Shown: positions 1,805 to 16,833 of the stretch, one piece after another
How the letters are laid out: each line of letters begins with the position of its first letter
How positions within the stretch are numbered: position 1 is the first letter of the stretch
NCBI GenBank assembly: GCA_003223165.1
Contig: QHXZ01000010.1
Coordinates: forward strand, 1-34,176
Length of the DNA: 34,176 nt
From: Acidobacteriota bacterium
GTDB taxonomy: Bacteria; Acidobacteriota; Polarisedimenticolia; Gp22-AA2
Direction of reading: 5' to 3'
The notes under the pieces: model-generated
What the model was told of the DNA's origin: nothing
Database searches by the model: none
What the model saw: only the letters and a program-made list of their open reading frames with translations
Translations under genes and position numbers: made by a program

Positions 1805-1879
1805 CGTTGGCAACCCGGCCGTCTCTGAGAGACCCGCGGCTTTCCGTCCCACCCTCGCGGATGGTTTGGCTTTACAACG
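1805..1879 (-). promoter_or_regulatory. Cyclic-di-GMP-I (GEMM) riboswitch aptamer in the protease leader
   Basis: Read on the minus strand, the segment carries the GEMM signature: CCAAACC, a hairpin, then GGGACGGAAAGCC. P1 closes perfectly as CGTTG (1879-1875) with CAACG (1809-1805). The next stem is CCATCC/GGGTGG, capped by a GCGA tetraloop of the GNRA class. The third helix includes GTCTC-TCA-GAGAC, followed by GGCCGGGTTGCC, the usual receptor-side GG...CC element, here with an apparent compensatory C-G change. In my alignment to the Vibrio Vc2 aptamer, the base equivalent to specificity position G20 is G. That fits c-di-GMP rather than the A20-type variants that bind cGAMP. About 48 bases separate it from the protease GTG. 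I see no poly-U terminator, so translational control (masking of GGAGG) is the likelier mode. The fold is read by eye, not computed. Confidence 0.9.
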
Positions 1880-4769: not shown

Positions 4770-6425
4770 TCAGCCGCGGTCGATCGCCTCGTTCGCACCG
4801 GCCTCCGTCGCCGGCAGAGAGAAGCGGAAGGTGCTCCCTCGGCCGACCTCCGAGTCGAGGGTGATCGTGCCCCCGTGGCTCTCGACAATCCTTCTACAAA
4901 TCGCCAGCCCCATGCCGGTGCCGGGATACTCGTCCTTCCGGTGCAGCCGCTCGAAGATCCTGAAGATCCGGCCGAAATGCTCCGGCGCGATGCCCAGGCC
5001 GTTGTCGCGCACCGAGAAGACGATGGTCTCTCCCCTCCGTCGCGCTCCGACATGGACGCTGGGCGTCTCGTGCCCTCGGAACTTGATCGCGTTGTCGATG
5101 AGGTTCTGGAACAGCGTGCTGACCTGGAGCTCGTCGGCCTTGACGGAGGGCAAGGGATCGTGCGTGACGGAGGCCCCGCTCTCGCGCATGGCGAGGCGCA
5201 GGTTCTCGAGCGCCTTCGTCAGCGCCGTCTCGCAGTCCGCCCGCCCTGGAGCGCCGTGCGACGCCGACGCCCTGGAGTAACACAGGAGCCCGTCGAGCAG
5301 CTCGCGCATCCGCGTGGCCCCGCCGACGATGAAGCGTACGTACGCCCGTGAATCGTCGTCCAGGAGGCCCTCGTTCCGGCTCGCCAGGAGCTCGGAGAAG
5401 CTGGCCACCATCCTGAGCGGCTCGCGGAGATCGTGAGAGGTGACGTGGGCGAACTGCTCCAGGTCGGCGTTGTGGCGTGCCAGGACCTGCGCGTGGCGCT
5501 CCAGCTCCTGCTGCGCGCGCACGCGCTCCGAAACCAGCGAGGCCAGGAGCAAGGACATGGTCGAAGTGACGCCCAGGAACGCCTGCAGCAGGAGGAGGAA
5601 CGCGTTCTGTTCCGCCGCGCTGGGCGACCCGAGGCCGCGCAGTGTGCCCCAGACGGCGATCCCTGCCAGCAGGAGGTTCGCGGTCGCGGCCTCCCGCGAG
5701 CCGAAACGGAACGCCGCCCAGAGGAGCGGCGGGATGCACAGGAAGGAGAGCGGGTGGTTCCCCGCGGCGTTCCAGGGAAAGGGGCCGAAGGCTCCCAGGG
5801 CCACGAGGGCCAGCGACGAGAGCAGGAGGACCGCTTCCGCCGACCGCGATCGGCCCCGTGCGATCCTCCGGCTGCCGCCCCACAGGATGAGCGGCGGGGC
5901 GACGATCAGGGCGCCGCCCAGGTCCCCGAGCCACCAGGTGAGCCAGACGGTGCTCCAGCTGCCGCGGCCGGCGAGTCCCCCGAGCCCCAGGTTCGCGACC
6001 CCTATCGTGGCGCTCACGGTCGTGCTGGCGACGGCGGCCAGCACGTACTTGAACACGCCCTGCGGGCGGTCGAACGCCTCCCTGCCGCGCGCGAAACGGG
6101 TCACGAGGTAGCCGCCCACCAGCCCTTCCAGGGTGTTTCCGATCGCGATGCCGATCGAGGTCGCCGTCGTGCCCGCCGTGAGGAGATTGACCAGGAACGC
6201 GCCGAGCAGGATGCCCGGCCAGGCGTTCCGGCCGTAGATCAGGAACGCGGCCATGGCGATGCCGGTCGGGGCCCAGACGGGTGTGGCGCTCGGGTTGACG
6301 AGGGCGAGCAGGAGGCCCAGCTTGCCGGCGCACAGGTAGGCCAGCGCCAGCGCAAGGCTCACCAGCGGCGTCACCGGTGAGCGGGCAGGCTCGCCTTCAG
6401 CCTCCGCTGCGATCGGCCGTTCCAT
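4770..6425 (-). CDS. MASE1-domain membrane sensor histidine kinase
   Basis: A 551-residue sensor kinase. Residues about 18-300 form a multi-pass hydrophobic MASE1-type sensor (early motif PVWAPTGIA, typical of that family). A short coiled linker rich in Glu, Arg and Gln follows, then a HisKA dimerisation domain with phospho-acceptor His331 in VTSHDLREP. The ATPase domain follows: N box NLIDNAIKF, G1 DNGLGIAP, F box FRIFERLH and G2 GTGMGLAI. The HisKA/ATPase half resembles phytochrome-like kinases that often pair with Rcp1-type receivers. The ATG at 6425 lies 29 bases inside the preceding GGDEF-EAL gene, so the two are one transcript, and the kinase probably phosphorylates its receiver domains. 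The ligand is unknown. Confidence 0.92.
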   Translation of the reverse strand: MERPIAAEAEGEPARSPVTPLVSLALALAYLCAGKLGLLLALVNPSATPVWAPTGIAMAAFLIYGRNAWPGILLGAFLVNLLTAGTTATSIGIAIGNTLEGLVGGYLVTRFARGREAFDRPQGVFKYVLAAVASTTVSATIGVANLGLGGLAGRGSWSTVWLTWWLGDLGGALIVAPPLILWGGSRRIARGRSRSAEAVLLLSSLALVALGAFGPFPWNAAGNHPLSFLCIPPLLWAAFRFGSREAATANLLLAGIAVWGTLRGLGSPSAAEQNAFLLLLQAFLGVTSTMSLLLASLVSERVRAQQELERHAQVLARHNADLEQFAHVTSHDLREPLRMVASFSELLASRNEGLLDDDSRAYVRFIVGGATRMRELLDGLLCYSRASASHGAPGRADCETALTKALENLRLAMRESGASVTHDPLPSVKADELQVSTLFQNLIDNAIKFRGHETPSVHVGARRRGETIVFSVRDNGLGIAPEHFGRIFRIFERLHRKDEYPGTGMGLAICRRIVESHGGTITLDSEVGRGSTFRFSLPATEAGANEAIDRG

Positions 6426-8712
6426 CGCCCTGGTCGGATGCCGCGGGGCCGTGGCCGTCGCCCGGTGCGGCCGCGCTCCAGCGCTGGAAGGTCCCCGTGC
6501 CGGCGCGGAGCAGCTCGGCGCACGCCTCGGCGGGGAGAGGCGCGCCGAAGTAGGGTCCCTGCATCTGGTCGATCTGGTGCCGCATGAGGAAGGAGACCTG
6601 CTCCGCGCTCTCGACGCCCTCCGCGACCACCGTCATCTGGAGATTGTGGGCCATGGCGATGATCGCCGACACGATGGCCGCGTCGTCGGGCTCGATCGCC
6701 ACGTCGCGGATGAACGACCGGTCGATCTTGACGCTGCCGAACGGAAAGCTCTTGAGGCGGCGCAGGGAGGCGTAGGCGGTGCCGAAGTCATCGACGACGA
6801 TGCGGATCCCCATTTCGTGCAGCCCGCGCAGCGTCTTGAGCGCCGTCGCCTCGTCCTTGGTGATCGCCTCTTCGGTCACTTCCACTTCGAGGCGCAGCGG
6901 GTCGAGGCCGGTCTCCGCCAGGACGCGCCGGAACGTCTCGAGCAGCGCCCGGCCCTGGTGCAGCTGGCGGTAGGAGAGGTTGACCGAAACGCGCAGCGGC
7001 TGCAGGCCCGCGATCTGCCAGGCCCGCCCCTGCGCGCAGGCGCGCCGCAGGACCCACTCGCCTATCCCGGCGATAAGGTCGGTCTCTTCCGCCAGGCGGA
7101 GGAACTGCGCGGGGTAGACCAGCCGCTGGTCCGACCGTCGCCAGCGGACCAGCGCCTCGAGGGCGATGACCTTGCCGGTGACGGCGTCGATGGTCGGTTG
7201 AAAGTGAAGCACGAGCTCGTCCCGCTCGAGGGCCCGCCGCAGCCCTTCGATCAGCGCCAGTCTCTCCGAGGCCTGGGCGCTCGCGGCGGGCGAGTAGAAC
7301 TGGCAGTTGGCCCGCCCCTGTTCCTTGGCGCGGTACATCGCCGCATCGGCGTTCTTGACCAGGGTCTCGGCCCCCTCCCCGTCGTACGGGTAGAGGCTGG
7401 CGCCGATGCTCACCGTCAGGGCCAGCTCGCGCTCCTCGAGGACGAACGGCGATGCGAAGGCTTGCATGACCTTGTCGGCCACCGCCGTCATGTCCTCGAC
7501 CCGCGTGATCTCCGGGAGCAGGATCGTGAACTCGTCGCCGCCGACGCGGGCCACGGTGTCGCTGGCCCGCACGCACCCCCTGAGGCGCGCCGCCACGTGC
7601 ACCAGGAGCTCGTCCCCCACGGTGTGCCCCAGGGTGTCGTTGATCTTCTTGAAATGATCGAGGTCGAGGAAGAGCACCCCCAGGGTCTGCTTGTTGCGGC
7701 GGGCGTGCTCCAGGGCCTGGCTCAGCCGGTCGTGGAACAGGATGCGATTGGGCAGATCGGTCAGGCCGTCGTGATGGGCCAGGTAGCGGACCAGCCTCCC
7801 CGAGCGCATGCGCTCGATGGCGTGCGCCACCGCCCGCAGCAGCAGGTCGCCGCCGAACTTCCCCTTGACCAGGTAGTCCTGGGCGCCCTGCCGCAGCGCC
7901 TTGGCGGCGACCTCCTCGTCGCCGAGGCCCGTCATCACGACGAGCGGCACGCCGGTCGCCTGGGCGTGCAGGGTGGCGAGCGTTTCGAGGCCCTGGCTGT
8001 CCGGCAGGGAGAGATCGAGCAGCACCGCGTCGAAGCTCTCCTCGCCGAGGCACCGCAGCCCGTCGCTCAGCCTGCCGACATCCACGAGCGCGACGTCGTC
8101 CCTGCCCGAGCCGTCGATCATCTCGCGCACCAGGCGGGCGTCTCCGGCATTGTCTTCCACCAGGAGGATCTTCAGGCTTGCGGCATCGCCGGCCTCGGCC
8201 GTCGCCTCCCGGACGCCGGGCGCGGCTTCCGGCCGATCGGGAGGCCTCTCCTGGTTCGGCGCGGGGTGCAGGCCCGGCAGCGTCACCTGGGTCAGCCAGA
8301 AGTCGCCGATCGCCCTGATGGTCTCCAGGAACTCGCTCCACTGGAGAGGCTTGGTGACGTAGCAGTTCGCCTGGAGCTCGTAGGCCCTGTTCCGGTCGCT
8401 CTCGGCGCTGGAGCAGGTCAGGACGACGACCGGGATGCTCTTGAGCTCCGCGTCGCCCTTGAGCTCTGCCAGCAGCTCGCGGCCGTCCTTCCTGGGCAGG
8501 TTGAGATCGAGCAGGATCAGGTCGGGGCGCGGCGCGGCGGCGTCCTTGCCTTCCCGCCGCAGGAACTCCATCGCCCGCACGCCATCGGCGGCCCAGTGCA
8601 GGCGGCTCCTGAAAGCCCCGTCTTTCAGGGCCTCCGCCGCGAGGCGGGCATCTCCAGGATTGTCCTCCACCAGGAGGATCTCGACGAGTCTCTCGGAAGC
8701 CGGGCGCTCCAT
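6397..8712 (-). CDS. Dual-receiver GGDEF-EAL protein (c-di-GMP synthesis/degradation)
   Basis: 771 residues in four domains. REC1 (about 8-135; phospho-acceptor Asp69 in LILLDLNLP) is Rcp1-like. REC2 (about 180-298) has Asp233. GGDEF (about 305-470) keeps GGDEF at 391-395 and an inhibitory I-site RASD at 382-385. EAL (about 485-730) keeps EAL at 519-521, NLS, EVTEE, DDFGT, KID and AEGVE. Both catalytic domains therefore look competent: diguanylate cyclase and phosphodiesterase in one protein, switched by phosphorylation. The ATG at 8712 has AAAGGA at good spacing; an in-frame TTG at 8748 would add 12 residues and is less likely. The gene overlaps the MASE1 kinase and follows the polysaccharide operon, so that synthase is a plausible target of its signal (inference). 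Confidence 0.95.
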   Translation of the reverse strand: MERPASERLVEILLVEDNPGDARLAAEALKDGAFRSRLHWAADGVRAMEFLRREGKDAAAPRPDLILLDLNLPRKDGRELLAELKGDAELKSIPVVVLTCSSAESDRNRAYELQANCYVTKPLQWSEFLETIRAIGDFWLTQVTLPGLHPAPNQERPPDRPEAAPGVREATAEAGDAASLKILLVEDNAGDARLVREMIDGSGRDDVALVDVGRLSDGLRCLGEESFDAVLLDLSLPDSQGLETLATLHAQATGVPLVVMTGLGDEEVAAKALRQGAQDYLVKGKFGGDLLLRAVAHAIERMRSGRLVRYLAHHDGLTDLPNRILFHDRLSQALEHARRNKQTLGVLFLDLDHFKKINDTLGHTVGDELLVHVAARLRGCVRASDTVARVGGDEFTILLPEITRVEDMTAVADKVMQAFASPFVLEERELALTVSIGASLYPYDGEGAETLVKNADAAMYRAKEQGRANCQFYSPAASAQASERLALIEGLRRALERDELVLHFQPTIDAVTGKVIALEALVRWRRSDQRLVYPAQFLRLAEETDLIAGIGEWVLRRACAQGRAWQIAGLQPLRVSVNLSYRQLHQGRALLETFRRVLAETGLDPLRLEVEVTEEAITKDEATALKTLRGLHEMGIRIVVDDFGTAYASLRRLKSFPFGSVKIDRSFIRDVAIEPDDAAIVSAIIAMAHNLQMTVVAEGVESAEQVSFLMRHQIDQMQGPYFGAPLPAEACAELLRAGTGTFQRWSAAAPGDGHGPAASDQGDGTADRSGG

Positions 8713-8783
8713 CGAGCGTCCTTTCCCTGTCCCGCGCTCCCTGTCCAAAGGTTGAGCGCGGCCATTCCCCCCGGGCGTGATTT

Positions 8784-8958: not shown

Positions 8959-10407
8959 TCAGATACGCCGCGCGGCGGGTGCAGGAGGGGGGGCCGTGCG
9001 GAACCCCTGCCGCTCCATCCGGCCCCAGGCGCGGCGGCGCAGGAGGAAGTCCCAGAAGGCCTTCACCTTGAAGAGGGAGAGGACCTGCCGGTATCCGAAG
9101 TTCTCCAGGATGCCGAAGAGGACGAGCGTCGCCAAGTGCTGCCAGCCGGGGTAGCGGCGGAAGGAGATCTCCTCCAGCAGAACGGCGGCGACCGACAGGA
9201 AGACCCCGAAGAAGACGGCGAAGACCAGGAAGAGAAGGAAGAAGTCGGCGTTCAGGAGACCCAGCCACCAGGAGAGGGCGAGCATCGCGTAGCCCAGGAT
9301 CTCGATGAACGGCCCCAGCGTCTCGAACAGGACGAAGTACGGCAGGGCGATCGTGCCGATGACGCCGAAGCGGGGGTTGAGGATCATCCGCTTGTGGCGC
9401 CAGAGGCTCTGCAGGAGACCGCGATGCCAGCGATTGCGCTGGCGGGCCAGGACGCGGAAGGTGGAGGGCACCTCGGTCCAGCAGACCGGGTCGGGGACGA
9501 AGACGATGCGGTAGGGACGTCCCCGGCGGTTCAGGGTCTCGTGCAGCTTCAGGACCAGCTCGAGATCCTCGGTCTCGGACCAGCGATCGTAGCCGCCCGC
9601 GGCGATCACCTCGGCCTTGCGGTACAGGCCGAAGGCGCCGGAGATGATCAGGAGAGATCGCAGGGTGCTCCAGCCGATGCGGCCGCTGAGGAACGCGCGC
9701 AGGTACTCGACCACCTGGAAGATCGGCAACGGCTTCCTGGGAAGGCCGATGCGCGCCACGCGTCCCTCGCGCACCTCGCAGCCGTTGGCGATGCGCACGA
9801 TGCCGCCGACGGCGACCATCTCCTGGGGATGCTCCATGAACGGTTTGACCACCCGCAGGAGGGCGTTTTCTTCGATGATCGAGTCGGCGTCCACCGAGCA
9901 GTAGAGCGGGTAGCGCGACACGTTGATGCCGGTGTTCAGCGCGTCGGCCTTGCCGCCGCGCTCCTTGTCCACGACCGTGAGGTTCGGCACCTCGAGCGTG
10001 CCGTAGATGGCGCGCACAGGGCCGGTCGGCAGGGTGCGACGGTAGATCTTGTCGGTGCGCTTCATGTCGAACGTGCCGACCAGGCGCTGCAGGGTGTCGT
10101 CCTTCGAGCCGTCGTTGACGACGATCACCTCGAACTGGCCGTAGTTCACGTTCAGCAGCGAGCGCACCGTCTCGACGATGGTGCGCGACTCGTTCCGGGC
10201 CGGGACGAGGATCGACACGGGCCAAGTCATGTCGGACTTCAGGATCTGCTCGTAGTCTGAGAAGAAGGTCCCCTTGACGAAGCGCACCACCTCGACGAGC
10301 GACACCAGGAAGAGGACGACGTAGACCCCGTTGAGCAGGGCGAAGTAGTAAATCACCCAGCGGTTGAAGGCCAGGACGATCTCCGGCAGCAGCATGTCCG
10401 GCGTCAC
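8959..10407 (-). CDS. Processive GT2 glycosyltransferase, exopolysaccharide synthase
   Basis: A 482-residue inner-membrane family 2 glycosyltransferase of the cellulose synthase / PNAG synthase type. It polymerises an NDP-sugar and moves the chain across the membrane. About two N-terminal membrane segments (residues 15-45) precede the GT-A domain with VNDGS (Asp99), SVDADS (Asp173, Asp175), the TED motif (279-281) and Q323-RNRW. Four or so membrane segments follow (about 345-445). There is no C-terminal PilZ domain, unlike BcsA. The GTG at 10407 has GAGGGGGA just upstream; the ATG at 10395 is the alternative. It lies 22 bases after the HEAT gene. Its sugar cannot be named from sequence; E. 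coli YaiP, next to yaiO, is a conceptual relative. Confidence 0.92.
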   Translation of the reverse strand: MTPDMLLPEIVLAFNRWVIYYFALLNGVYVVLFLVSLVEVVRFVKGTFFSDYEQILKSDMTWPVSILVPARNESRTIVETVRSLLNVNYGQFEVIVVNDGSKDDTLQRLVGTFDMKRTDKIYRRTLPTGPVRAIYGTLEVPNLTVVDKERGGKADALNTGINVSRYPLYCSVDADSIIEENALLRVVKPFMEHPQEMVAVGGIVRIANGCEVREGRVARIGLPRKPLPIFQVVEYLRAFLSGRIGWSTLRSLLIISGAFGLYRKAEVIAAGGYDRWSETEDLELVLKLHETLNRRGRPYRIVFVPDPVCWTEVPSTFRVLARQRNRWHRGLLQSLWRHKRMILNPRFGVIGTIALPYFVLFETLGPFIEILGYAMLALSWWLGLLNADFFLLFLVFAVFFGVFLSVAAVLLEEISFRRYPGWQHLATLVLFGILENFGYRQVLSLFKVKAFWDFLLRRRAWGRMERQGFRTAPPPAPAARRI

Positions 10408-10429
10408 CGCGTCCCCCTCACGAGGCCCC

Positions 10430-11650
10430 CTACGCCGGGCGCTGCAGGATCTTGAGCAGCGCCAGGCGCACGCCCTCCTGGGCATGATCGATCGCCTGCT
10501 GCGTCAGATGGTCCACGCGCTCCAGCCGGATGATCTTCTCCACGAAGCCGATGGCGGCCTCGCGCCGCGCCGGGTCGGCCGAGGCGAGGTCGGCCAGGTA
10601 CTCGTCGATGATGCGCCCCTCCTCGAGCTGCGCCACCGCCTGGTGCCGGGCGTAGGTGTCGTCCGCGTCGAGCATGCGGATGAGCGCGTCGCGGCCGGCC
10701 GGTCCCACGAGGCGCAACGCCTCGGCCGCGTTGGCGCGCACCCACCACTGGCGATCCTTGAGCGCCTCGCACAGCGCGGCGATGGCGCCCTGGCCGCCCA
10801 CGCGCCCGAGCGCCTTCGCCGCCATGGCCCGCACGGGCCATTCCGGGTCGCGCAGCGCTTCCGTCAGGTCGGCGGCGAAGCCGGGGTCGCCGACGTGCCC
10901 CAGGGCGTTCGCCGCGCGGGCGCGGATGTCGGGGTGTGGATCCTTGAGCGCCTTGCGGATGAGGCCGGCCGCCTTGAGGCTGCGGATGCGCCCGAGCACG
11001 TCGAGGGCCGAGATGCGCGCGAGGTGCGGCAGGCTGTCGTAGGCCGCCAGCAGCTCGTCCACCGCTTCGGTCCCGGTGCCGATCAGGATCTCCGCCACGC
11101 GGATCGCCGACCAGCGGCTGGGGTCGGTCAGGGCCAGGACCAGAGGGCGGATCGACGTGGTGCCGCGGATGATCCCCAGGGCGCGCGCCGCGCGGATGCG
11201 CACCTCGCCCATCGGGTCGTTCATGGCGGCGACCAGCGGCTCGGCGGCGGCGCGGCTGCGCATCAACCCGAGCCGCTCGGCGGCCTCGGCCCTCTTCCAC
11301 CAGCGCTGCGACCTGAGGTGCAGGATCGAGACGCGCACCGAGCCGAGCGCCTCGAAGGCGGCCGTGATCCGATCGCGCGATTCTCCCTTGACGACGCGCG
11401 CGGCGTCGAGCAGGGCCGCTTCCGCCAGGCGCCGGTCCCGGCGGGACAGCGGCTTCGGCAGGTAGTCGAGGATCGCACGGTGGCCCGTGGCGTTGGCATA
11501 TTCATAGATGGCCGGCTCGAGGAGGGCACGGCGGCGGCGGTCGAGCGCCTCGCGCATCTCGCGCAACGCCTTGTTGAAGGCGATCAGCAGCGCCAGGCCG
11601 CCCAGCAGGGCGCCGGTTCCGGCGATCAGGCGGATCAGGAGGTCGTGCAA
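10430..11650 (-). CDS. Membrane-anchored HEAT-repeat protein of the polysaccharide operon
   Basis: A 406-residue protein with one N-terminal membrane helix (about residues 3-24, GTGALLGGLALLIAF). A strongly basic stretch follows (DRRRR), which by the positive-inside rule puts the rest in the cytoplasm. From about residue 115 to the end there are seven or more HEAT-like repeats with the pattern VRxxAAxALG (for example VRIRAARALG, IRARAANALG, VRAMAAKALG). HEAT solenoids bind proteins, so a scaffold between synthase and receiver is likely (inference). The start is not an ATG: the best candidate is the TTG at 11650, which has GGGGGA about 5 bases upstream and overlaps the receiver stop by 16 bases. 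A much longer open frame upstream is only a shadow of the receiver gene. Confidence 0.85.
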   Translation of the reverse strand: MHDLLIRLIAGTGALLGGLALLIAFNKALREMREALDRRRRALLEPAIYEYANATGHRAILDYLPKPLSRRDRRLAEAALLDAARVVKGESRDRITAAFEALGSVRVSILHLRSQRWWKRAEAAERLGLMRSRAAAEPLVAAMNDPMGEVRIRAARALGIIRGTTSIRPLVLALTDPSRWSAIRVAEILIGTGTEAVDELLAAYDSLPHLARISALDVLGRIRSLKAAGLIRKALKDPHPDIRARAANALGHVGDPGFAADLTEALRDPEWPVRAMAAKALGRVGGQGAIAALCEALKDRQWWVRANAAEALRLVGPAGRDALIRMLDADDTYARHQAVAQLEEGRIIDEYLADLASADPARREAAIGFVEKIIRLERVDHLTQQAIDHAQEGVRLALLKILQRPA

Positions 11651-12045
11651 CCGGTCCCCCCCGGCGCGGTGCGCTCCAGGATCTTTCGGATGCGCGCCAG
11701 AAGCTCCTGCGTGCTGAACGGCTTGATCATGTAATCGTCGGCGCCGAGGTTCAGCGCCTTGACCACGTCCTCCTCGCGATCCTTGACCGAGAGGATCAGG
11801 ATCGGGACACGGCGCGTGGACGGATCGTCCTTCAGGCCGTTGATCACCTCGAAGCCGTCCTTGTACGGCATCACCAGATCGAGCACCACGAGCCTCGGCA
11901 GGAGCGAAGCCGCCATCCGCAGCCCCGCCTCGCCGTCCTCCGCCTCGTGCACCTCGTACCCGTTGTGCGCCAGGAGCGTGCCGACGAACCGGCGGATGAT
12001 CGGGTCGTCGTCCACGATCAGGATGCGCGCCTGTTCTTTCCCCAC
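11635..12045 (-). CDS. Single-domain (CheY-like) response regulator
   Basis: A 136-residue receiver with no output domain. The acidic cluster is Asp12-14, the phospho-acceptor Asp56 (VVLDLVMP), the switch Ser86 (LILSVKD) and Lys108 (MIKPF), so phosphorylation should work. The start is GTG at 12045 with AGGAGG about 4 bases upstream. It is translationally coupled to the HEAT gene. A stand-alone receiver inside a polysaccharide synthase operon suggests that it acts by binding a partner, most simply the HEAT protein or the synthase. Its kinase is not certain; the MASE1 kinase at 4770-6425 is the nearest candidate. Confidence 0.92.
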   Translation of the reverse strand: MGKEQARILIVDDDPIIRRFVGTLLAHNGYEVHEAEDGEAGLRMAASLLPRLVVLDLVMPYKDGFEVINGLKDDPSTRRVPILILSVKDREEDVVKALNLGADDYMIKPFSTQELLARIRKILERTAPGGTGCTTS

Positions 12046-12100
12046 CGCCCCTCCTGTCCCGGCCTGCGGCGCGCCCTGGCGCCGCCCCGGGCGGCATCGT

Positions 12101-13843
12101 TCAGAACCTCATGTGGAAGACGAGCCCGGACCGGGTCGAGGTGAACCCGGTGGCCACCTGCAGGGCATAGTCGCTGCGCAAGTAGAAGGCCTCCAGCCGC
12201 GCTCCCCCGCCCAGCCCCACGCCGAACGCGGCGTACCCGGCCGATACGCGATCGTTGTTCCCGGCCCCCGGCGCCGACCCCGCGTTGGTGCTGAAGTTCT
12301 GCCGGCCGTAGGTCCCCTCGATGCGCCAGGTGATCCGGCCGTGGTGGTAGTCGTCCCCGACCGCCACCGTCAGGAGCTCCGAGTCGTAGCGCAGCGGGTC
12401 GAAGTAGGCATCGTCCTTGTCCTCGTTGAAGGTGCGGTAGCGGACATCGAGGGTCGCGGTGACCCGGGCATGCGCCGGCGGCAGGCGCCACTCCAGGGCC
12501 GCCGAGGCCGACTTGCGCGCGTTGCCGTCGGAATAGGAGCCGTATCCACCCGCCCCCGACAGCATCCAGGCCGGCCTGAAGCGGTACTCCAGGCGCAGAT
12601 CGGCGCTGTCCACCTTGATGCCGCGATCGATGAGCGGCGCGGTGTCGATCAGGGCCTCGCGCGCGCCGGACCCGGCCACCGTCAGGCGCGGACCGACCGT
12701 CCAGCGGATGAAGCCACCGCCGACCGCCACGCTGCGCGACGTTCCGTCGAAATCCTCCTCGTGGGCCGCGCCGAGGCGGGCGTGGAAGGTCAGCGGGCCG
12801 AGGAGGCGGGACGTCACCCCCGCCATGAGGACCTGGGCGCGCGCCTCGACCACCGAGTCGACCGGCAGAGCCGCCAGCGCCTGCGAGGCCGCCAGCGGAT
12901 CGCCCTTGCACAGACCGATCGTCCGGCAGCGGTACTCGGCCAGGTAATCGGAGAACGCGATGCGGACCGAGGTCTGCGGCTCGGCCATGAAAGTACAGGC
13001 GGCCGTGCCGGCATCGAGGCGGTTGCTGTCGTTGTCGCTGCGCCGGAAGGCGTCCAGGTCGCCGCTGGGCGCGAGCGATCGGTGGATCTCCTCTTGAAGC
13101 TGGCGCGCTTCGCGGCTCTCGGGATGGTCGAGCACCAGGTTGTCGGCCTGCTCGCGGGCCGAGCGGTCGAGCCCCTGCCAGTGGTGGATCTGGGTCATGC
13201 CGATGCGCGCCTCGAGGTTGCCCGGATCGGCCCGCAGCACGTCGCGGTAGAAGGCGCCGGCGCGGTGCAGCTCGCCCTGCCAGGCCAGCAGGCGAGCCCG
13301 GCCCAGGTGCGCCTGGATCGATTCGAGGCGCCGATCCTCCATGCCGCGGTAGACGGCGTCGGCATCGGCGTAGCGGCCCCTCCAGCCGAGGGCCTGCCCC
13401 AGGCCGAGGAGCACGCGCGGGTCGTCGGGGTACCTGGCGCGCAGATCTTCGTACGTCCCGATCGCTTCCCGCAGATCGTTGTGCCATGAGAGGACCTTGG
13501 CCAGCTCGAGCGACAGGTCGAGATCCCCGGGGGCCAGCGCCAGGGCGCGGCGGTAGCTGCCGATCGACTCCTCGAGGTCGCCGTCCCAGGACTGGAGCAA
13601 CGCCAGGCGCCGCAGGGGATGGACCGCCTCGGCCCCCGACCGGAGGGCCTCCTCGTACAGGCGGCGCGCCTGCCCGTATTCCTCGTGCGCGAAGGCGGCG
13701 TCCGCATCGCGGATCAGATCGGCGACCGGACGGGCGGGCGCCGGGCTCTCCGGCGCCGGCGTCCCGGGCGCGGCCTCGCCGGCCGCCGCCCCCGGAGCGA
13801 GGCCGGCGAGCAGCAGCGCCGCGAGCCACACGCCGCGCCTCAT
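12101..13843 (-). CDS. TPR protein with YaiO-type outer-membrane beta-barrel
   Basis: 580 residues: a signal peptide (1-22, ending AGAAAGEA), five or six TPR units (about 40-255), then an outer-membrane barrel (about 285-580) of alternating amphipathic strands that ends in Phe (FHMRF), the usual last residue for barrel insertion. The layout matches the export porins PgaA and BcsC (periplasmic TPR plus barrel), and the barrel resembles the YaiO family. Its likely job is to take the polymer from the periplasm through the outer membrane. The ATG at 13843 overlaps the stop of the upstream gene (TGATG), and GGAGG sits 7 bases before it. A GTG one codon earlier is possible. A 55-base gap separates it from the receiver gene. 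Confidence 0.88.
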   Translation of the reverse strand: MRRGVWLAALLLAGLAPGAAAGEAAPGTPAPESPAPARPVADLIRDADAAFAHEEYGQARRLYEEALRSGAEAVHPLRRLALLQSWDGDLEESIGSYRRALALAPGDLDLSLELAKVLSWHNDLREAIGTYEDLRARYPDDPRVLLGLGQALGWRGRYADADAVYRGMEDRRLESIQAHLGRARLLAWQGELHRAGAFYRDVLRADPGNLEARIGMTQIHHWQGLDRSAREQADNLVLDHPESREARQLQEEIHRSLAPSGDLDAFRRSDNDSNRLDAGTAACTFMAEPQTSVRIAFSDYLAEYRCRTIGLCKGDPLAASQALAALPVDSVVEARAQVLMAGVTSRLLGPLTFHARLGAAHEEDFDGTSRSVAVGGGFIRWTVGPRLTVAGSGAREALIDTAPLIDRGIKVDSADLRLEYRFRPAWMLSGAGGYGSYSDGNARKSASAALEWRLPPAHARVTATLDVRYRTFNEDKDDAYFDPLRYDSELLTVAVGDDYHHGRITWRIEGTYGRQNFSTNAGSAPGAGNNDRVSAGYAAFGVGLGGGARLEAFYLRSDYALQVATGFTSTRSGLVFHMRF

Positions 13844-16734
13844 CACGGCCCCTCCCGCGAGGCTGCCGCCTGCCGATCGAGCGACTCGAACGCCTTCTTG
13901 AGGATCGCCCAGGATGCCTTCTTCTCGATGCGGTACGACGGGCGGTCCCAGCCGCGCCAGGCGTACAGCGGCAGGTCGGCCGCGGCCAGGTGCGCGGCCG
14001 CCGGAAGCCGATCGGCGAGACGCGCCTTGAGCGGTGTCTCGCCCCCGGGGGGCGCCTCGGGCTTGACGGCCGTGGCGTAGAAACGGAACCCGGGCGTTTC
14101 CACGGTGCCGATGGAGCGCAGATCGTTCGGGTCGTCATGGAGGACGCGGCGCGAGGAGGGGTCGGTGACGTTGAGCAGCCCCCAGCCGATGCGGGCCTCG
14201 ATGAAGCTGCCGGAAACACTCGCTTCCCAGTCGGCGAGCGTGGTGTAGTCCGGGTCGCGCGGGTCGATCGAGCCCCGCCGCAGCGGCGATCGGCTGGAGC
14301 CCTGCGCGGGAAACAGGGTGCCGTCCCGGCCGATGCGCCGGCGGTTGGTCTCGACCCGGATCTCCATGAAGCGTCCGTCGGCGTTCTCCACCGACTGGTA
14401 GGGGCGGTGGTAACGGTGCGTGAAGATGTCGTAGGGGGGATCGACCAGCAACCGGCTGGTGTCGTCGCCGTCGAAGATCAGGCAGAATTCCAGGCCGGCC
14501 GGGGAGGGGACGCTTTCCTCGACGGGCATCCTGTGGTCCCCGCGCCTGGCGTCGTAGGTGTCGATGCCGATCAGGTAGCTCGCGTCGCGCCAGTCGGGCG
14601 ACCCGTCCCCGTCGGCATCCAGCTTCGCGACCTGAAGGCGGATGTAAAGATAGGCCTCGTCGGAAGTGACCGCAAGAGCCCGCAGGGTCCGTGCCGCGTC
14701 GTGTCCGTCGGCGAATGAACGCAGCGGCCCTCCCTCGCGCTTCACGGCGAGGGGAGCCACGTCACGCCAGTCCTCGCCCCGCCCATCGATCGCCACCTTC
14801 CAGCCGCTCGCCCCGGGACGCGCCGCCAGCACGCCGTAGTTCTGCTCGGGATCGAGCACGTTGAGCCAGAGCGGATTGCGCTCGTAGGGGATCTCGAACT
14901 CGGCCACCAGCCAGTTGCGCTTGAACCATTCGTCCAGAAGCGAGAAGAGGATCCCTCCCGCCAGGCCCGCCTCGCGCACATCCCGCATCAGCCGCGCGTC
15001 GATCTCCCCTTGCGCGCGTTCGTCGTGCCCCCCGTGGTTCCACCCCTGCGGCTGCAGGTGGGCGATGCCGCGGCTGCTCGGCACGCCGAGTTCGGCGATC
15101 AGGATCGGCTGCTCGCCGTGGTGCCGCGCCAGGTCCCGCAGGTAGCCGATGTAGCTGCTCGGGCCGAGGCTGTCGTGGGCCTTGAGGTAGCCGGGGTCGA
15201 GGTTCATGAAGTCGGGATAATAAGGATACGCGTGGTAGGTGGCGAACAGGCCGCCCTGCGCCGCCGGCAAGGCGTGGATGCGCGCCGCGTCGACCCCGAC
15301 GGCGTCGTTGTCGTATTCCTGGATGGGCCCCGGCGGAGGGGGCTCCCCGAGGCGGCGCCGCAGAGCCTCTTCCTCGGCGACCGTCGCCTCGGTCGGGTGC
15401 GACAGCGGATCGAGCGTCGGCCAGTTCACGAACGACACCGGGCGCTGCTGGCGGTAGCGCCCGGTCTCGTAGGCGACGGTGAAATCGAGGATGGAGGCGA
15501 GCCAGCGTTCGAAGCGGGTCGCCCCCTCCTCCGGGCGGGTCTCGAAATACGCCCCGACGAACGAGCCTCCCCCCGGACCGGCCACGCTCCCGTCTTCCCT
15601 CGCGTCGTACCGCGCGACGGAGAACGGCTCCCACTCCCTGCCCACGAGGAACGCCAGGAGGCTCGACGAGACGTCGGCGCGGTAGGAGCCCGAGGCGCGG
15701 CCCGGACGCGGGGGGAGATCGAGGTTGCCGTGCACCGCGTCGACCACGCGCCGGATTTCCTCCCGGAACCCGTCGAGGAAGGGAGGGGCGTCGTAGTCGT
15801 GGTCCTCCGGCAGCTCGGTCCAGACCCCCTGCACCAGCCAGAGACGCCCCCTCCCCTCGCGGTTGTGCTGCGCCAGGGCGGAGTAGAAGGCGGGCGGCAG
15901 AAGGGTGTAGAGGCGGACCGTGTTGGCCCCCATTCCGGAGACCAGGTCGAGCCAGCGGGCGTAGGTCTCCGGGTCCGCGGGGAACTCGGCCGGGAACCGC
16001 CCCGGCAGGGCGACCCCCATGTTGATCCCCTTGACGAAGAGGGGCCGCGGGACGCCCGCGTCCAGGACCCACAACTGCCGCTCTCGGGCGCCCGCCACGA
16101 CCTCGATCGGCGTCGCGTCCGGCACGGGCGGCCGCGGGCGCGATTCCTTGATCAGGCCGCCGGCCGCGAGGACCTGGTCGAGGAACCCCTGGGCCTCGGC
16201 GTCCGCCGGCTCGAGGGCCAGGGCCCGGCGGAAGCGATCGGCCGCCTCGGTGAGCCGGCCGAGATCGCGCAGCGCCAGGCCCGATCCCTTGAGGGCGTCG
16301 GCGTTCCTGGGGTCGCGGCGCAGGACCTCCTGGAAGCGTCCGAGCGCGGCGGGCGCCTTTCCCTGGCGCAGCAGGACATACCCCAGGCCGACGCGTGGCT
16401 CGATGGCGCGCGCATCGAGGACCAGCGCGGCGCCGAACTCGCTGCCGGCGTCCTTGTCGGCGCCGCCGCGCAGCTGGCACCAGCCCGCCAGGGTGTGAAG
16501 CGCGGCGCTCCAGCCGCTCGTCGCCGCGGCACGCCGCACCGCCTCGAGCGCCTCGGTGAAGCGGCCCCCGCGGTAGAGGCGGAGCGCCTGCTGGTAGGCA
16601 TCGTCCTCCGGCACCGTCGGCCGCGCCGCCGCCCGGGCGTGCGCGGTCAGCAGGGCCAGACCGAACAGAAGGAGAAGCAACGCGAGCGGCAAGGCGGGGT
16701 CGCCGTGGACAGGACGCCAGAACGTCGGGGTCAC
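13843..16734 (-). CDS. Exported TPR protein with glycoside-hydrolase-like TIM barrel and C-terminal beta domain
   Basis: 963 residues. A signal peptide or anchor lies at about 14-36 (LALLLLLFGLALLTAHA). TPR repeats span about 43-190. A barrel related to clan GH-A hydrolases spans about 225-620, with GINMG at its start, MGANTVRLYT, a possible acid/base Glu367 in GREWEP, and a possible nucleophile Glu548 in ILIAELG. A C-terminal region (about 640-890) with AYLYIRLQV and YLIGIDTYD resembles CBM9-like or DOMON-type beta-sandwiches. It is the first gene of the operon and overlaps the barrel porin gene. By analogy with BcsZ and PgaB it may trim or modify the polymer in the periplasm (inference). 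The start is GTG 16734 (GGTGAGG about 8 bases away); the open frame continues upstream without sense. Confidence 0.82.
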   Translation of the reverse strand: MTPTFWRPVHGDPALPLALLLLLFGLALLTAHARAAARPTVPEDDAYQQALRLYRGGRFTEALEAVRRAAATSGWSAALHTLAGWCQLRGGADKDAGSEFGAALVLDARAIEPRVGLGYVLLRQGKAPAALGRFQEVLRRDPRNADALKGSGLALRDLGRLTEAADRFRRALALEPADAEAQGFLDQVLAAGGLIKESRPRPPVPDATPIEVVAGARERQLWVLDAGVPRPLFVKGINMGVALPGRFPAEFPADPETYARWLDLVSGMGANTVRLYTLLPPAFYSALAQHNREGRGRLWLVQGVWTELPEDHDYDAPPFLDGFREEIRRVVDAVHGNLDLPPRPGRASGSYRADVSSSLLAFLVGREWEPFSVARYDAREDGSVAGPGGGSFVGAYFETRPEEGATRFERWLASILDFTVAYETGRYRQQRPVSFVNWPTLDPLSHPTEATVAEEEALRRRLGEPPPPGPIQEYDNDAVGVDAARIHALPAAQGGLFATYHAYPYYPDFMNLDPGYLKAHDSLGPSSYIGYLRDLARHHGEQPILIAELGVPSSRGIAHLQPQGWNHGGHDERAQGEIDARLMRDVREAGLAGGILFSLLDEWFKRNWLVAEFEIPYERNPLWLNVLDPEQNYGVLAARPGASGWKVAIDGRGEDWRDVAPLAVKREGGPLRSFADGHDAARTLRALAVTSDEAYLYIRLQVAKLDADGDGSPDWRDASYLIGIDTYDARRGDHRMPVEESVPSPAGLEFCLIFDGDDTSRLLVDPPYDIFTHRYHRPYQSVENADGRFMEIRVETNRRRIGRDGTLFPAQGSSRSPLRRGSIDPRDPDYTTLADWEASVSGSFIEARIGWGLLNVTDPSSRRVLHDDPNDLRSIGTVETPGFRFYATAVKPEAPPGGETPLKARLADRLPAAAHLAAADLPLYAWRGWDRPSYRIEKKASWAILKKAFESLDRQAAASREGP

Positions 16735-16833
16735 CCCCACACCCTCACCGGCATCGATCTGCAGAACGGGATCGGGAAGAGCTGGATGACTGCCCACGGC
16801 GCCCCCGCGCCGCGCCATCCCGGGCCTGCGCTC

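Follow-up and report, generated by a model that had tools for sequence, protein, structure and literature searches.

Several described polysaccharide secretion systems resemble parts of the locus analyzed here. PgaABCD, which makes poly-beta-1,6-GlcNAc in E. coli, shares with it a GT2 synthase, a TPR and beta-barrel exporter, an extracytoplasmic hydrolase-type protein, and arrangement in one apparent operon, and the Bcs system (BcsA/B/Z/C, BcsG) shares a processive GT2 of the same fold, the TPR-barrel protein BcsC, and the hydrolase BcsZ, with BcsG belonging to the PF00884 superfamily. A GT2 and a YaiO-type barrel also occur together in the E. coli yaiS-yaiP-yaiX-yaiO locus. In structure, the GT2 part most closely resembles the hyaluronan synthases (Chlorella virus HAS and animal HAS1), at 14 to 16% sequence identity; we know of no HEAT partner for HAS, nor, to our knowledge, has a role been assigned to HEAT subunits in polysaccharide synthases. 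In NfrAB, the E. coli phage N4 receptor, a GT2 and an outer membrane protein secrete a polysaccharide under cytoplasmic control, and NfrB senses c-di-GMP via its own MshEN domain (PMC8669469). Clostridial Ccs (PMC7710045) and Gram-positive Pel (PMC7112168) are monoderm export systems that operate without an outer membrane part.

The stretch of DNA analyzed, hereafter the window, comprises 34,176 nucleotides from an Acidobacteriota bacterium (contig QHXZ01000010.1, assembly GCA_003223165.1), and the original prediction saw in it a five-gene exopolysaccharide machine separate from the known ones. We consider it probable that the locus encodes a system for synthase-dependent polysaccharide secretion whose core is a synthase of two proteins, with a HEAT-repeat protein as a subunit and a stand-alone receiver (REC) as the likely switch.

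A five-gene locus and its distribution

All five genes lie on the minus strand. The first (13843..16734) encodes a predicted extracytoplasmic protein of 963 amino acids, in which Pfam recognizes TPRs, and AlphaFold and Foldseek a glycosidase-like (beta/alpha)8 barrel followed by a C-terminal beta-sandwich; it has a GTG start and a hydrophobic N terminus, with an in-frame upstream ATG at 16818 as a possible alternative. Its stop overlaps the ATG (TGATG) of a 581-amino-acid TPR and outer membrane beta-barrel export protein of the PgaA/YaiO type (12101..13846, start at 13846/13843), identified by Pfam TPR matches and by a PgaA model that spans TPRs and barrel. A 136-amino-acid CheY-like REC protein follows (11635..12045; PF00072, E=3.5e-28), and the end of its gene is overlapped by 16 bp by the TTG start of the gene for a 406-amino-acid HEAT-repeat protein with one N-terminal membrane helix (10430..11650; PF13646, E=3.5e-34). 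The last gene, for a 482-amino-acid processive GT2 polysaccharide synthase with membrane helices (8959..10407; PF13641, E=1e-21), begins 22 bp past the HEAT stop. Coordinates, domain matches, and relatives agree on five intact genes in this order, as first described, and because relatives are 45 to 83% identical in the GT2 and 29 to 64% in the glycosidase-like protein, the genes can be taken as real. Divergent dprA, from 16919, marks the upstream edge of the set. Since the genes overlap or lie close together, the arrangement suggests one operon; the single promoter proposed for it was not borne out, in that a scan of the operon start for the sigma70 consensus, the only type covered, gave no match.

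A c-di-GMP riboswitch was sought at the operon start and was found neither there nor in seven relatives. Elsewhere in the window, a c-di-GMP-I-GGC riboswitch (1805-1879, minus strand, 65.6 bits) lies just upstream of an S8 subtilase gene (2-1780, same strand). Downstream of the GT2 gene, on the same strand, two further genes follow: the first (6397-8748) encodes a response regulator that combines a pair of REC domains with GGDEF and EAL, the second (4770-6425) a MASE1 histidine kinase. Together they might provide the REC protein with a signal locally. The EAL gene was rejected as part of the system, as its position beside the operon is not conserved in the class, and membership in a defense system was set aside, as it drew only generic HEAT and REC matches.

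Next to dprA-topA, the order of glycosidase, barrel, REC, HEAT, and GT2 is kept in the family, the order, and part of the class, with GT2 identities of 63 to 83% in most carrier genomes at these ranks. In other classes of the phylum the REC-HEAT-GT2 core persists at about 45% GT2 identity, and this core is syntenic in many phyla, so the co-occurrence on which the original prediction depended does extend across genomes. What changes is the size of the unit: the locus is real and its near relatives look alike, but the five-gene form is one local version only. Only the HEAT-GT2 pair is obligate; REC accompanies it frequently (146 of 176 loci), and barrel and glycosidase vary by lineage.

The GT2 family was detected in 60 of 297 sampled genomes of the window's phylum (about 20%) at E<=1e-60. 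At E<=1e-100, it occurred in 21/200 sampled genomes of Bacillota (10%), 13/299 of Pseudomonadota (4%), 20/117 of Halobacteria (17%), and 50/198 of Bacteroidota (25%). Among named genomes searched with a profile of diverse GT2s, relatives came from Bacillota, Actinomycetota, Bacteroidota, Gemmatimonadota, Elusimicrobiota, Bdellovibrionota, Myxococcota, Spirochaetota, Pseudomonadota, and haloarchaea. One contig labeled as a Klebsiella pneumoniae metagenome-assembled genome (L110) also carries the cassette, and its label is probably a binning error.

The synthase and its HEAT partner

Loci were picked by GT2 similarity alone, and a HEAT gene was counted when it lay on the same strand within 150 bp of the GT2 gene or was fused to it. 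By this measure the same HEAT family accompanied the synthase in 175 of the 176 bacterial and archaeal loci with room for neighbors: 20/20 in the class, 20/20 in the phylum, 75/76 in named genomes, and 60/60 in a held-out set of Bacillota, Pseudomonadota, Halobacteria, and Bacteroidota left out of HEAT-model building. These counts take in related genomes and are not independent events, though the groups span two domains of life. In the one exception (L107), the HEAT gene is 6 kb away, the sole nonadjacent HEAT-model match in 9,644 open reading frames. Approached from the other direction, the 297 genomes of the phylum yielded 67 HEAT matches of full length: 61 were next to a GT2 of the family and 3 next to a divergent one, and 3 had no GT2 neighbor.

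Some members of the HEAT family have other neighbors. In L269-L271 they stand beside divergent GT2s (188-274 bits), and in one genus (L272-L274) three HEAT genes without a GT2 lie beside a deoC-like gene. The class also contains a second, divergent GT2 followed by a giant HEAT protein of 1,212 amino acids (L062 2042-5677, L063 2635-6276).

Five natural proteins (L140, L146, L148, L222, L225) fuse HEAT and GT2 into a single chain; because they group together in the tree, they may go back to one event. A sixth fusion (L218) runs from an anchor helix through glycosidase, membrane helix, and basic stretch to HEAT, a segment order that would put the glycosidase outside and the HEAT repeats in the cytoplasm. 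The window HEAT protein likewise has an N-terminal membrane helix followed by a basic stretch (RRRR), and its solenoid is probably cytoplasmic. The six fusions tie glycosidase, HEAT, and GT2 into one machine and leave the contact surface unspecified. With near-universal adjacency, they lend strong support to the earlier suggestion that HEAT is a synthase-associated subunit, and we are highly confident that HEAT and GT2 form one functional unit.

The synthase itself has the marks of a polymerase. D99, the DxD motif (173-175), ED (280-281), and Q323-R-x-R-W327 are invariant in an alignment of 12 diverse family members. In an AlphaFold model of a relative's HEAT-GT2 fusion, computed as a single chain without PAE (pLDDT 82, pTM 0.72), the GT2 part has hyaluronan synthases as its nearest PDB folds, followed by cellulose and chitin synthases. 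A membrane GT2 with the motifs and fold of processive synthases places the locus among synthase-dependent secretion systems. Curated models rank PgaC best, at 121.8 bits against a cutoff of 422, and CelA reaches 36 bits against 699. In a quick maximum-likelihood tree, one branch (SH-aLRT 95) separates all 52 HEAT-linked GT2s from E. coli PgaC, YaiP, NfrB, BcsA, and other GT2s; several of these outgroups have long branches. The GT2 model of the family gives E. coli YaiP 66 bits, whereas members range from about 420 to 820.

Neighbors and fusions give clues to the polymer in some lineages. In Paenibacillaceae and relatives, a UDP-glucose dehydrogenase near the cassette forms a cluster of 12 loci (e.g., L118 12347-13804) and a GlmS a cluster of 6 (e.g., L125 13651-15504), which would fit a polymer of amino sugars and uronic acids there. 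In two Bacteroidota (L259 9231-12683, L260 940-4455), the GT2 is fused to a multihelix PF00884 domain of the sulfatase/phosphoethanolamine-transferase superfamily, which would fit a decorated polymer in those organisms. Neither clue identifies the product of the window organism.

Receiver, glycosidase, and export barrel

The window REC protein has the acidic pocket, acceptor Asp, and Lys, and it carries no output domain. Across the family, a same-strand REC lies within 4 kb of the GT2 in the 146 loci counted above and is absent nearby in the other 30. Upstream RECs mostly retain the acceptor Asp (161 of about 180). REC follows the GT2 in a number of Bacillota, mostly Paenibacillaceae (L105, L111, L113, L116, L118-L120, L123, L124, and others). 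Among 21 such downstream RECs, again mostly from Paenibacillaceae, 13 carry Glu in place of the acceptor Asp, which may mimic a constant "on" state. Some RECs belong to REC-GGDEF-REC proteins, and a fusion search returned no REC-HEAT or REC-GT2 chain. Mesorhizobium has the order kinase, REC, REC, YaiO protein, HEAT, and GT2, with a gene for an Hpt protein on the opposite strand, an arrangement that suggests posttranslational control of the machine.

The barrel of the glycosidase-like protein gave no match above cutoff in Pfam, NCBIfam, or PDB sequences. Its AlphaFold model (pLDDT 80, pTM 0.86) was ranked by Foldseek closest to GH157, then to GH2 and GH5. Invariant E367 and E548 stand at the ends of strands 4 and 7 of the barrel, if model strands 170-175 and 355-360 are counted as its 4th and 7th (the two residues are E178 and E359 of the modeled part). 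On this model the protein is predicted to be a glycoside hydrolase of the clan GH-A (4/7) type from an unnamed family. The family is also present in Bacillota, haloarchaea, and other phyla; it accompanies only 48 of the 176 loci, and we think it likely that the enzyme acts on the polymer. Its specificity could reveal what that polymer is.

The TPR and barrel protein has a signal-like N terminus and ends in Phe. Its barrel is weakly recognizable: Pfam PgaA_barrel gives E=0.0044, below the cutoff, the PgaA model scores 63 bits versus 367, and models for YaiO (TIGR04390/PF19413) give 16.8 bits versus a cutoff of 32, compared with 170 and 202 bits in relatives. Clear YaiO barrels occupy the same place in relatives of the locus. 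Where named genomes offered sufficient flanking sequence, a barrel of the YaiO or PgaA type accompanies 26 of 34 diderm loci, compared with none of the 29 loci from monoderms or archaea (Fisher P=5e-11, with the diderm/monoderm label assigned from organism names); the remaining 8 diderm loci had no barrel by the models used.

A model, its rivals, and the known systems

We propose that the GT2 would use nucleotide sugars at the cytoplasmic face of the membrane to build a glycan and, in the manner of hyaluronan and cellulose synthases, move the chain across in a channel of its own, a role suggested by its fold and motifs. The HEAT protein, tethered by one helix at the cytoplasmic face and docked on the GT2, may be an obligate scaffold or gate. 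A kinase would phosphorylate REC, which in turn may switch the synthase via HEAT. In diderms the polymer would leave through the periplasmic TPRs and the outer membrane barrel, a part that, by gene distribution, monoderms and archaea do without, and the extracytoplasmic glycosidase may trim, release, or clear the polymer, a role comparable to that of BcsZ or of the PgaB hydrolase domain. Our confidence differs among these steps. That the system makes a secreted polysaccharide is very likely. That REC switches synthesis by phosphorylation through HEAT strikes us as evenly balanced: gene order and a REC without an output domain point to this step, and it is weakened by the loci that have no REC nearby and by the want of any REC fusion.

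The main competitor to such a switch would make HEAT an assembly or stability factor and let REC act elsewhere, for example on a cyclase or regulatory partner. REC is indeed neither universal nor ever fused to HEAT, and nearby REC-GGDEF-REC fusions could work by producing c-di-GMP. We nonetheless regard this as rather unlikely, given that the window REC has no output domain, that its gene overlaps the HEAT gene, and that the Mesorhizobium order suggests posttranslational control. A glycosyltransferase modifying a membrane lipid or protein, rather than an export polymerase, has in its favor that XrtG/XrtP-associated enzymes are among the distant matches; the processive fold, the Q-x-x-R-W motif, the restriction of the export barrel to diderms, and the presence in the operon of a protein that resembles a glycosidase and carries an export signal make it very improbable.

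It is also improbable, if less so, that the locus is a divergent Pga system in which the GT2 is PgaC and the TPR barrel PgaA, with the glycosidase in place of PgaB and HEAT in place of PgaD. PgaC and PgaA are the best curated models for synthase and barrel, and some Paenibacillaceae carry GlmS close to the cassette, but both scores fall far under their cutoffs, the HEAT-linked GT2s occupy the side of the branch without PgaC, and the GT2 family extends into archaea. Moreover, Pfam and NCBIfam scans of window proteins gave no match to a model for a deacetylase, PgaB, or PgaD. The two-protein synthase of HEAT and GT2 remains our preferred reading. Its most ambitious form, a separate unrecognized class common to bacteria and archaea in which HEAT is an obligate subunit and phosphorylated REC docks on it as an on/off switch, is offered tentatively, at slightly less than even confidence.

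Should the preferred reading hold, many species would possess a system that exports an undescribed polysaccharide, has a HEAT subunit, and possibly links two-component signaling directly to polymer synthesis. The kind, synthase-dependent secretion, is known; the HEAT-coupled class appears to be undescribed in the open-access literature, where our search (preprints and most subscription journals lay outside its scope) found no description of a HEAT-GT2 pairing. Two candidates were rejected as the same system: a Zetaproteobacteria stalk cluster, which has a T2SS-E-like domain fused to the GT2 and a BcsB-like protein, and a mention of HEAT in Xanthomonas fuscans, which concerns an unrelated effector.

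At the genomic level, a separate polysaccharide system, as originally proposed, is well supported: the GT2 falls outside PgaC, BcsA, NfrB, and YaiP, and its accessory genes differ from those of described Pga, Bcs, and Pel loci. Unlike PgaABCD, the new system has HEAT and REC, has no PgaB deacetylase or PgaD, and occurs also in monoderms and archaea. Compared with Bcs, it has a HEAT subunit and another hydrolase family and has no PilZ domain or BcsB, neither of which matched any window protein scanned, although its Bacteroidota members carry the GT2-PF00884 fusion, from the superfamily of BcsG. The yaiO-yaiP pair, named originally as the only parallel, holds for the barrel, which many members have in its YaiO form. 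The synthase does not fit the parallel: YaiP scores low and lies outside the tree group, and the yai locus encodes a deacetylase and an acyltransferase but neither HEAT nor REC. NfrAB likewise has no HEAT, and NfrB groups apart from the HEAT-linked family. The hyaluronan synthases come closest in fold, and the UDP-glucose dehydrogenase and GlmS genes of some Paenibacillaceae loci add to the likeness. Ccs and Pel have other accessory genes, with HEAT in neither as described (PMC7710045, PMC7112168). If REC does act on HEAT, this switch would be the phospho-signaling counterpart of c-di-GMP/PilZ control.
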